Source of the DNA: an uncultured Clostridia bacterium
GTDB taxonomy: Bacteria; Bacillota; Clostridia; Oscillospirales; Ruminococcaceae
NCBI GenBank assembly: GCA_947166275.1
Contig: CAMVDP010000002.1
Coordinates: 62,001 to 126,000 of the forward strand
DNA length: 64,000 bases
Reading direction: 5' to 3'
The notes under the pieces were generated by a model that did no database searches, was not told the origin of the DNA, and worked only from the letters and a program-made list of their open reading frames with translations. How positions within the stretch are numbered: the first letter of the stretch is position 1; the number at the start of each line of letters is the position of its first letter. Below, in pieces: positions 51,153 to 61,288 of this stretch. The translations under genes were made by a program, and so were the position numbers.

Positions 51153-51500
51153 ATGAAAAAGATAGCAGTGGATCTGGCGGCAAAGAAGCTCGGCGAAAAA
51201 GCTGCGGATATCAGAAGAGCGGCTGACGAGGAGATCGTCATAAGCAAGAAGGTACAGACACTTGAGATACTCGTGGCTCTGCTCGGCGGCATCGTGCTCG
51301 GTATGTTCCTGTCGCCCCGCAAGAAGGTAAGCTACAAGATAGCAAGCGAGAACCACGATATCGGCGGCGGCGAGTTCTCTGTAAACAAGCCCGGCGGCAC
51401 CGATGACGATGATGTTGATGATGATGACTTCGATGACGATGACGATGACGATTTCGACACCGATGACAACGGCAAAAACGGCAAGTTCATCAAGCTTTAA
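51153..51500 (+). CDS. Small membrane protein with poly-Asp region
   Basis: A 115-residue protein that I do not recognise. Residues 1-30 are charged helix, a hydrophobic segment at about 34-51 (LEILVALLGGIVLGMF) may be a membrane anchor, and residues 85-108 are almost pure aspartate with Val and Phe. CGGAGGAAAA precedes the ATG. It lies between rdgB and yhbY. Confidence 0.75.
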   Translation: MKKIAVDLAAKKLGEKAADIRRAADEEIVISKKVQTLEILVALLGGIVLGMFLSPRKKVSYKIASENHDIGGGEFSVNKPGGTDDDDVDDDDFDDDDDDDFDTDDNGKNGKFIKL

Positions 51501-59798: not shown

Positions 59799-59834
59799 GA
59801 ACTGTTTTATAACTATGATCATGAGGTGTATGTT

Positions 59835-60239
59835 ATGGAAAACATGACCATTGCCGAAAAGGTATCATATATCAAAGGCCTTGCCGAAGGACTCAAGCTC
59901 AATACAGAGACTCCCGAGGGCAAGATTCTCGCGGCTATCATCGATGTGCTCGGTGATATCGCACTCAACATCGAAGATATCGACAGCGACCTTGCCGACG
60001 TTTCCGATGTCGTTACAGACCTTGAGGAAAGCGTTATGAACCTTGAGGACGAAGTTTACGGCACAGAGGACGACGACTACGGCGATGACGACGAGGATGA
60101 TGACTCTTATGAGATCACCTGCCCGAACTGCAATAACACGATGGTGACAGACTTCGCCACTATTGAGTCGGGTAACCTTGTCTGCCCCAACTGCGGCAGT
60201 GTCATCGAGTTCGAGATCGACGACGAAGACGACGAATAA
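59835..60239 (+). CDS. CD1247-type protein with zinc ribbon
   Basis: A 134-residue protein. The N-terminal helical hairpin (AEKVSYIKGLAEGLKL ... EGKILAAIIDVLGDIA) resembles the CD1247 N-terminal family of Clostridia, function unknown. A run of acidic residues follows, then a zinc ribbon with CPNCNN and CPNCGS, and an acidic end. AGGTG lies 6 nt before the ATG at 59835. It follows efp closely. Confidence 0.8.
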   Translation: MENMTIAEKVSYIKGLAEGLKLNTETPEGKILAAIIDVLGDIALNIEDIDSDLADVSDVVTDLEESVMNLEDEVYGTEDDDYGDDDEDDDSYEITCPNCNNTMVTDFATIESGNLVCPNCGSVIEFEIDDEDDE

Positions 60240-60274
60240 TACGGCAATAACGCCTATTATAAACAAAACAAAAA

Positions 60275-60599
60275 TGTTTCGGGGCGGAGTGAAATTCTCC
60301 ACCGGCGGTGCTGCACGACGCAGCCGTTAAGCTCCTGCGAGAGAGCTGACGATAGTCCGCGAACGCCTTATATGGTGCCGAATCGGTGAAATTCCGATAC
60401 CGACGGTAAACGGATAACTGTGGTGGGTGTATGCGCCCATAGGAGATCCTGCTGCATGACGCAGCAAAGGAGCTCCCCAGAGCGCGTCAGGACGACGCGC
60501 CCATAGGAGATCCTGCTGCATGACGCAGCAAAGGAGCTCCCCAGAGCGCGTCAGGACGACGCGCCCATAGGAGATCCGAAAGTCCGGATGAAAGAAACA
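60275..60599 (+). promoter_or_regulatory. FMN riboswitch (RFN element) with expanded P6 arm
   Basis: The conserved RFN segments are present in order: GGGGCGGAGTGAAATTC and CCACCGGCGGT near 60281-60309, a GCTGC/GCAGC hairpin in the P3 position, AGTCCGCGAACGCC, GGTGAAATTCCGATACCGACGGT split around 60384-60407, and AGTCCGGATGAAAG at 60581-60594. P1 pairs TGTTTC (60275-60280) with GAAACA (60594-60599). The usual aptamer is near 120-150 nt; here it spans 325 nt, because CCGAC (60400-60404) and GTCCGG (60582-60587) enclose an extra stem CGGAT/ATCCG (60411-60415 with 60574-60578) and a tandem repeat. FMN binding should favour the terminator at 60616-60650 and shut off ribU. Confidence 0.93.
60433..60577 (+). 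repeat. 64-bp tandem repeat inside the FMN riboswitch (2.3 copies)
   Basis: Two identical 64-bp copies (60433-60496 and 60497-60560) and the first 17 bp of a third (60561-60577). Each unit has TGCTGC/GCAGCA with an ATGAC loop, flanked by GGAG/CTCC. GCGCGTC/GACGCGC with an AGGAC loop spans each unit junction. The repeat lies at the tip of the extended P6 arm. Confidence 0.95.
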
Positions 60600-60615
60600 A
60601 GCCTGTAAAGGTGTC

Positions 60616-60650
60616 GCCCTGCTGTTTTTATGCGCAGCAGGGCGTTTTTG
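60616..60650 (+). terminator. Riboswitch-controlled terminator before ribU
   Basis: A perfect 9-bp stem GCCCTGCTG/CAGCAGGGC (60616-60624 with 60635-60643), then GTTTTTG. It ends 27 nt before the ribU ATG. Confidence 0.93.
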
Positions 60651-60676
60651 TTCCTCCGAAGGAAATGGAGTACATC

Positions 60677-61288
60677 ATGTCAGAAAACACTATCCAGAAA
60701 AAAAAGCCAAACCACGTACGATTCCTCACACTCACGGCGATACTTACGGCTATCGCGGTGATACTGCAGTACCTTGAATTTCCGGTGCCGCTGATACCAA
60801 GCTTCGTGAAGTTCGACTTCTCGGATCTGCCCGCGATACTTGCGGCGTTCCTCGTTTCACCGCTCTCCGGTATAGCAGTCTGTATGCTCAAAAACCTGAT
60901 ACACATTGCGGTTTCGATGTCAGCAGGTGTCGGAGAGCTCTGCAACTGCCTGCTCGGTATAGCTATGGTCGTTCCCGCGTGGCTCATATACAAGATAAAG
61001 CCGTCGAAGGTGAATGCCGCGCTCGCTATGATCGCCGGCTCATGTGTAGCAGCTGCCGCAAGCCTTCCGATAAACTACTTCATAACCTACCCGTTCTACG
61101 AGAACTTCTACGGGCTTCCCATGGAAGCGATACTCGGAATGTACCGCGAGATAAACGACGGTGTGGGCTCGCTCTGGGATGCACTGATATGGTTCAATCT
61201 GCCGTTCACATTCGTCAAGTTCATGGTAGACTCGATCATCGTATTCTTTATCTACAAGCCGCTCGCAAAAGTCACAAAGAAATACTGA
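60677..61288 (+). CDS. ribU: Riboflavin ECF transporter S component
   Basis: A 203-residue substrate-binding membrane subunit for riboflavin uptake, working with the shared EcfA/A'/T energising module (not in this window). Six hydrophobic segments follow a charged N-terminus; the family motif FVKFDFSDLPAILAAF lies near 48-63. The FMN riboswitch directly upstream confirms the substrate class. The ATG at 60677 has GGAG 6 nt upstream; an in-frame ATG at 60665 would put its ribosome binding site too close. Confidence 0.95.
   Translation: MSENTIQKKKPNHVRFLTLTAILTAIAVILQYLEFPVPLIPSFVKFDFSDLPAILAAFLVSPLSGIAVCMLKNLIHIAVSMSAGVGELCNCLLGIAMVVPAWLIYKIKPSKVNAALAMIAGSCVAAAASLPINYFITYPFYENFYGLPMEAILGMYREINDGVGSLWDALIWFNLPFTFVKFMVDSIIVFFIYKPLAKVTKKY

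Follow-up and report, generated by a model that had tools for sequence, protein, structure and literature searches.

A dispersed two-hairpin repeat in the P6 loop of a predicted FMN riboswitch upstream of ribU

The riboswitch locus and its enlarged P6 arm

The DNA analysed here, called the window, is a stretch of 64,000 nucleotides (G000:C2:62001–126000) from the draft genome of an uncultured Clostridia bacterium, which comprises 1.88 Mb in 49 contigs and is 81% complete (G000, "own genome" below). On its forward strand lie a predicted FMN riboswitch aptamer (60275–60599, P1 to P1), a predicted intrinsic terminator (60615–60652) and ribU (60677–61288), the gene for a riboflavin ECF transporter S component. 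Directly 5′ of the riboswitch, 59826–60239 encodes a small, acidic protein whose N-terminal domain is of the CD1247 type and which also has a TFIIB-like zinc ribbon. The ribU product matches PF12822 (E 1.6e-30), and its best solved-structure match is the riboflavin uptake protein 3p5n_A (E 7.3e-23). The best NCBIfam ECF family is FolT, far below its cutoff, and the name RibU therefore rests on PF12822 (ECF_trnsprt), 3p5n_A and the riboswitch. The terminator of the putative expression platform consists of a stem at 60615–60644 followed by a T tail. It came from a hairpin scan that is no evidence by itself (1 terminator-like hairpin found, 1.4 expected in shuffles), and like hairpins are seen by eye at the corresponding place in relatives.

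The stretch 60275–60599 is predicted to be an FMN riboswitch, and its core letters leave little doubt of this. The P1 strands are TGTTTC (60275–60280) and GAAACA (60594–60599), and the P6 strands CCGAC (60400–60404) and GTCCGG (60582–60587) enclose 177 nt. For comparison, 101 distinct aptamers were taken from the loci accepted by a pattern parser, nine loci yielding none. The P6 5′ strand with the start of L6 (CCGACGGTAA, 60400–60409) equals the consensus of these parsed aptamers, the strings of P5 and of both P6 strands are the majority strings among them, and the 3′ strands of P6 and P1 (60582–60599) were assigned from core letters and majority strings. The P1, P2 and P3 strands were recognised by eye. 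Core strands, helix order and the place before ribU and a terminator are those of the Rfam FMN model RF00050, from which the window aptamer differs in having an L6 of 173 nt and an L3 of 44 nt.

In a permissive scan RF00050 matches 60271–60429 with 58.3 bits (E 9.7e-13), below its gathering score of 66.2 bits, the insert being too long for the model to bridge. With default settings a scan over the entire window came back empty; standard annotation would thus miss this riboswitch, since the score is under threshold. A close relative without inserts, G031, scores 109.5 bits. The alignment stops short of the true 3′ strands at 60582 and 60594, and hence the 3′ strands of P6 and P1 are misplaced into the insert, at 60410–60429. 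The position of the insert is not settled by the RF00050 alignment, and therefore its placement rests on the core letters, which put it in L6 and not outside P6. These letters bear out the sequence-only reading of the locus, which had proposed an aptamer with CCGAC/GTCCGG strands enclosing 177 nt in front of ribU.

Tandem Repeats Finder reports an array at 60433–60577 with a period of 64, 2.3 copies and 100% match (score 290), as had been proposed for a 64-bp unit. Within the insert, the 5′ half of a sealing stem (CGGAT and CTGTGG, 60411–60423) is followed by a small hairpin (60424–60439) formed with the leading partial unit. This partial unit, the 3′ end of a copy, opens the array (60433–60448) and is followed by copy 1 (60449–60512), with hairpin A, stem B and hairpin B, and by copy 2 (60513–60577). 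The 3′ half of the sealing stem (CCATAG and ATCCG, 60565–60578) is common with the end of copy 2. The CGGAT/ATCCG seal suggested earlier is present in the minimum-energy fold, lengthened by CTGTGG/CCATAG, and stems equivalent to it are seen by eye in G058, G030 and G060.

The 191-nt arm (60400–60590) folds at −93.6 kcal/mol (z −6.96), a value reached by none of 200 shuffles. Its minimum-energy fold joins hairpin B strands from different copies, and many registers compete because the units are identical. The ladder of hairpins envisaged before is supported: forcing P6, the seal, the small leading hairpin and both hairpins of each unit together gives −89.1 kcal/mol, at a cost of 4.5 kcal/mol. 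The single-copy register of the dispersed copies, without the seal, gives −73.0 kcal/mol.

A dispersed two-hairpin repeat

The unit of the array recurs at loci without a riboswitch. Two covariance models were used, R1 from 12 riboswitch-located copies and R2, built against circularity, from 67 matches in loci without a riboswitch. R2 finds copy 1 in the window insert at 60449–60514 with 67.3 bits (E 2.2e-16). Copy 2 is matched by R1 at 60513–60578 with 87 bits, and by R2 with 67.3 bits in the whole-genome search (G000:C2:122513–122578). Other riboswitch inserts score 35.3–72.2 bits with R2, and 12 of the 14 matches that it reported in riboswitch loci are riboswitch inserts. The other two are copies in opposite orientation just 5′ of the G058 riboswitch (L041:1303–1369, minus strand, 55.7 bits; L041:1397–1461, plus strand, 56.1 bits).

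Judged by these matches, the L6 unit is a member of a dispersed two-hairpin repeat and not a riboswitch-specific expansion. The sequence-only reading had taken the insert for a tandem-repeat expansion of the riboswitch. Tandem units do stand in L6, but they were not born in P6; they belong to a dispersed genomic family that also occurs in L3 and is tandem elsewhere. The 44-nt L3 insert of the window (60310–60353) is probably a decayed copy of the same element, with hairpin A kept and hairpin B lost. R1 matches it at 60308–60350 with 21.1 bits (E 0.0036), and the independent model R2 gives no match there at E ≤ 0.1.

Seventeen R2 matches at E ≤ 0.1 were found in the own genome; 12 of them reach E ≤ 7.2e-10, and two of these are the riboswitch units. 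The riboswitch units form a sequence subfamily of their own, which is why BLAST in the same genome recovered only the riboswitch copies. Across the genus, R1 has matches at E ≤ 0.1 in 27 of 71 genomes, counting the own genome, and as many as 59 in a single genome. The single-contig genome G001 holds nine dispersed copies, and R2 also finds copies in G032. Matches thin out beyond the genus: 8 of 396 genomes in a family sample match at E ≤ 0.01, three of them weakly, and 9 of 394 in an order sample match R2 at E ≤ 0.001, six being of the genus, one of genus g94 in the same family and two weak ones elsewhere. Within the samples searched, the repeat family as delimited by these models is nearly confined to the genus and its neighbours. 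Viral contigs gave no match to two exact patterns, which miss variants, and plasmids none to the 145-bp array. Six of the 58 sources searched contain adjacent tandem copies; among these, the own genome has two behind trpA, and G031 and G033 have three each. In G023, G048 and G002 many copies (L221–L235, L261) have longer common flanks (GACACC...GATAAAC...ATGCAGTATTTC), and the element there seems to be part of a larger repeat.

The element is about 66 nt long and consists of hairpin A followed by a longer stem with an A-rich internal loop and hairpin B. The caps are usually C-ANGAY-G, and ANGAY loops occur in most of the 67 copies. Hairpin A loops are mostly AGGAC, ACGAT or AGGAT, those of hairpin B mostly ACGAT or ACGAC, and the internal loop mostly places CAAAA or CCAAA against AUAAAA-like strands. 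In alignment A5, which was fitted to the R1 structure and hence leans towards it, both sides change in 19 of the 20 pairs, and 96.6% of 1283 cells are paired. The covariation score of 0.651 compares with 0.173 after shuffling and with no more than 0.093 when the partners are slid. Both-sided change also occurs in 11 of 12 predicted pairs of A4, an alignment of 40 copies made from sequence alone, which is misregistered in places and weak in its consensus fold (−4.46 kcal/mol).

The stems contain few G-U pairs. Dispersed copies have 14 G-U and 16 A-C among the 1283 cells (14 and 9 with the outermost pair excluded), and riboswitch copies have eight of each in 239, while the P5 stem of the 101 aptamers, certainly selected as RNA, has 15 G-U and 2 A-C in 303. 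As a share of standard pairs, G-U makes up 1.1% in dispersed copies and 3.6% in riboswitch copies. The corresponding shares are 8.8% for P4 stems and 10.7% for 33 other L3 hairpins, both obtained by folding, which selects the pairs and so biases these two values upward. These statistics, small in numbers, point to upkeep of the palindrome at the DNA level, or to recent copying, rather than to selection on one RNA strand.

About a third of the sites tested lie within a strong outer hairpin. The flank test started from 69 listed sites; one was dropped because its flanks were short, and nine because of a 3′ flank that recurs in a single genome. Mutual pairing of the flanks at the remaining 59 averages −12.4 kcal/mol versus −8.4 kcal/mol when permuted, with none of 200 permutations as low. 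At 19 of the 59 sites, against about three expected, flank pairing falls within the lowest 5% of permuted values and forms a strong outer hairpin, and some of these are terminators; no unusual outer stem is found at the other 40. The threshold down-weights near-identical families, and the longer-flank copies of G023, G048 and G002 stay among the non-hairpin sites. In the own genome, six of eight tested arrays fall in the strong outer-hairpin group; a T-rich tail like that of intrinsic terminators is seen by eye in all six, on the element strand in five and on the opposite strand in one. Behind one ABC-transporter gene, a filled and a bare site can be compared by eye: the hairpin of G058 is plain, and a similar one in G002 carries the element in its loop. 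Two own-genome copies, one following trpA and the other an ABC permease gene, were compared with 10 relatives, and for neither was a clean empty site found. At both sites relatives have the shared gene, the gene order beyond differs, and some carry other copies (by eye). Twenty-seven sites could be viewed in context: neighbouring genes are convergent at 12, in the same direction at eight and divergent at two, and a neighbour is missing in the stretch at five. Four of the 27 overlap a called ORF of at least 90 aa.

Aptamer loops of related species

L6 is at most 3 nt long in 89 of the 101 parsed aptamers, 18–32 nt in seven and more than 100 nt in five, whereas L3 is at most 3 nt in 62, 12–40 nt in 33 and more than 40 nt in six. 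The seven intermediate L6 loops (L053, L060, L062, L063, L114, L120, L128) hold a plain hairpin in those inspected by eye, and L6 therefore appears to tolerate helices more widely. The five long loops are those of G000 (173 nt), G058 (162 nt), G060 (146 nt), G030 (410 nt) and G012 (113 nt). G000 carries 2.3 units of the element in L6, G058 two, G060 one and G030 four; the sister G031 carries none. One copy stands in L3 of G058, G002, G023 and G033 (69–70 nt). Inserts in L3 and L6 lie at an equivalent point, between CGGT and AGTCC. Copy number in L6 thus differs between species, as the sequence-only reading had anticipated, and with inserts in assemblies of four different species the arm is neither invariantly short nor peculiar to one assembly.

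Records with identical riboswitch letters are CAMVNQ010000003.1 for G060, CAMVEM010000069.1 for G058, JAGAWN010000225.1 for G033, JAFPUE010000039.1 for G023, DEWH01000018.1 for G002 and JAGBLA010000083.1 for G031. The 113-nt L6 insert of G012 (L044) gave no match with R2 and is, by its sequence, unrelated to the element. It seemingly contains two related AT-rich hairpins (GAACATTA...TAATGTT), another sequence expanding L6. The G020 contig (L087, L108) breaks off 196 bases before a ribU-like gene, at the place where a riboswitch would be expected.

On a ribU tree, riboswitch occupancy needs five changes, of which starred branches enforce at least four. As few changes suffice in 127 of 500 label shuffles, and occupancy is therefore not clustered. 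Four outgroup branches of the tree are long and one outgroup row (G029) is misplaced; the tree was used only for in-group sister pairs. Such pairs differ in occupancy: G000 has the element and G031 lacks it (98/95), and so it is with G058 and G056 (100/99) and with G023 and G048 (92/80).

Each of 13 riboswitch units is nearer to a riboswitch unit of another species (71–89%) than to the dispersed copies compared from its own genome (61–75%; 2–10 per genome). L6 units are 79–89% alike between species. The L3 copy of G058 is 88% identical to an L6 unit of its own genome and 62–72% identical to L3 copies of other species. The four-fold sites of ribU are near saturation (24/73 for G000 and G058, chance 26%; 33–51% in pairs among the four species with the element in L6). 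Two histories fit these data: an old, selected riboswitch lineage with repeated clean loss and L3–L6 exchange, or a single subfamily that has recently spread to the same sites.

Probable origin of the insert and its possible bearing on ribU control

The data establish the homology with dispersed copies, their covarying structure, tandem arrays elsewhere, the excess of outer hairpins, unit numbers that vary among species and core letters of the aptamer left intact. We consider it probable that the window insert comprises two complete copies plus a 3′ remnant of a dispersed palindromic repeat amplifying within the genomes of the genus, often in the loop of another hairpin (in terminators and in L3 and L6 of FMN aptamers) and often in tandem, and that it is mainly a tolerated passenger of the riboswitch. 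The element would have come into L6 ready-made, as a hairpin module, at a helix-tolerant point. The sealing stem would close the module off, with P6, P1 and the FMN pocket still able to form, and copies may later have been gained or lost through slippage or unequal exchange. The insert would chiefly lengthen the P6 arm; a modest effect on co-transcriptional folding may exist but would be secondary. In the simplest reading, with pocket and P1 intact and the module sealed, FMN would still favour the terminator. The added 170 nt precede the P1 3′ strand, and therefore completion of the aptamer would be delayed, while the interval from completion to the terminator would not be lengthened. An effect of the insert on ribU control is possible. 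Against this explanation stand the mobilising enzyme, which was not found, the 40 of 59 sites with an unremarkable outer stem, the two own-genome copies for which relatives gave no clean empty site, and the riboswitch units, which are more alike across species than to their own dispersed copies and may thus be under purifying selection.

Published work places the bound FMN at the junction and describes P2/P6 and P3/P5 as rigid domains at the periphery (Wilt et al. 2020, PMC7573352). Riboswitches are described as tolerating structured insertions, and FMN T-loops as open to interruption by a helix (Barrick and Breaker 2007, PMC2258182). The variable aptamer insertions, as presented there, are nonconserved, whereas the insert here is a tandem copy of a genome-wide repeat, common to L3 and L6 and conserved. 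Pneumococcal BOX elements, boxA-(boxB)n-boxC, are likewise described as small dispersed folded repeats with tandem modules, one of them lying between two T-box riboswitches and cotranscribed with them (Croucher et al. 2011, PMC3049150). The likeness drawn from that account is one of organisation; the BOX copy lies between riboswitches, whereas the present element lies inside an aptamer loop, and outer modules of the A and C type were not identified.

A more specific, tentative proposal is that a mobile palindromic element preferentially enters apical hairpin loops, those of terminators and the pseudo-symmetric L3 and L6, giving expandable peripheral arms. Single-stranded or cruciform DNA may perhaps be the route of entry, and the CGGT...AGTCCG edges common to L3 and L6 would allow transfer from one loop to the other; copy number would then alter aptamer folding.

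Alternatively, the units in L6 (and L3) may be domesticated, selected for folding rate, RNA polymerase progress or contacts of P2/P6 and P3/P5, with copy number setting ribU induction. We regard this as unlikely. The likeness of L6 units between species, set against the 33–51% at ribU four-fold sites, could mean purifying selection rather than a passenger. Five element pairs covary among the riboswitch copies, and the riboswitch subfamily was found nowhere else in the 71 genomes at E ≤ 0.001, save two 26-base matches in G054. However, the element is patchy on the ribU tree, where shuffled labels often need no more changes, and the sisters G031, G056 and G048 lack it. The equal numbers of G-U and A-C cells in riboswitch copies, small as they are, give no sign of selection on the RNA strand, and the patchy, high-identity pattern also fits a recent spread.

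A pairing of CCTGCTGC in hairpin A with GCAGCAGG in the 3′ strand of the terminator, which would make an antiterminator, was considered and set aside. By eye, no such match is seen between the terminators and hairpin A stems in G058 and G030, and the pairing is probably local.

It is quite doubtful that the element is itself an RNA device, binding a protein or ligand through its two similar loops and spread as an RNA-coding module. The mini-ykkC motif, which is guanidine-II, and the TwoAYGGAY motif likewise have two hairpins with similar short loops; the element differs from both in its ANGAY loops, strict Watson-Crick stems and dispersed copies. The near-identical capped loops, the conserved CAAAA/AUAAAA internal loop and the strong covariation would suit such a device, and the loops resemble the ACGR loops of mini-ykkC as given in PMC2864571. 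Nevertheless, the repeat matches no Rfam family in the 54 loci with copies that were scanned (E ≤ 0.5 for 14, E ≤ 0.01 for 40), where nothing convincing but tRNAs appeared. Neither mini-ykkC nor TwoAYGGAY was matched there, the latter result holding only if Rfam 15 has such a model. The G-U share of 1.1%, against 8.8–10.7% in folded neighbouring stems, also argues against a device, and a constant gene context was not seen.

Mobilisation by a Y1 transposase, as a REP/RAYT or IS200/IS605-type element, is very unlikely. REP/BIME sequences with RAYT transposases are also short, palindromic, intergenic and multicopy, and the DNA-level pairing pattern of the present element would suit such a mover, but the element is without Y1 association. 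Y1_Tnp (PF01797) occurs in 20 of the 71 genomes, 9 of the 27 with R1 matches and 11 of the other 44, which are not all empty, as R2 finds copies in G001 and G032; it was not found in the own genome (81% complete). Y1_Tnp thus does not track the element and is disfavoured as its mover. An assembly artefact is extremely unlikely: short tandem arrays can be miscounted in a draft of 49 contigs, yet related inserts stand at the same point in three other assemblies, and dispersed copies are present in single-contig G001.

In the open-licence papers searched, neither a dispersed repeat within an aptamer loop nor a report of this element was found, and by that literature a small interspersed palindromic repeat in riboswitch aptamer loops is new. 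At least some of the "variable insertions" in aptamers are thereby given a concrete origin, in that a dispersed genomic repeat can be their source. With 0, 1, 2 and 4 units in the same loop of natural relatives, the effect of peripheral-arm length on an aptamer becomes directly testable. Elsewhere in the window, at 51398–51467, lies a short tandem repeat of the CGATGA type (Tandem Repeats Finder score 84).
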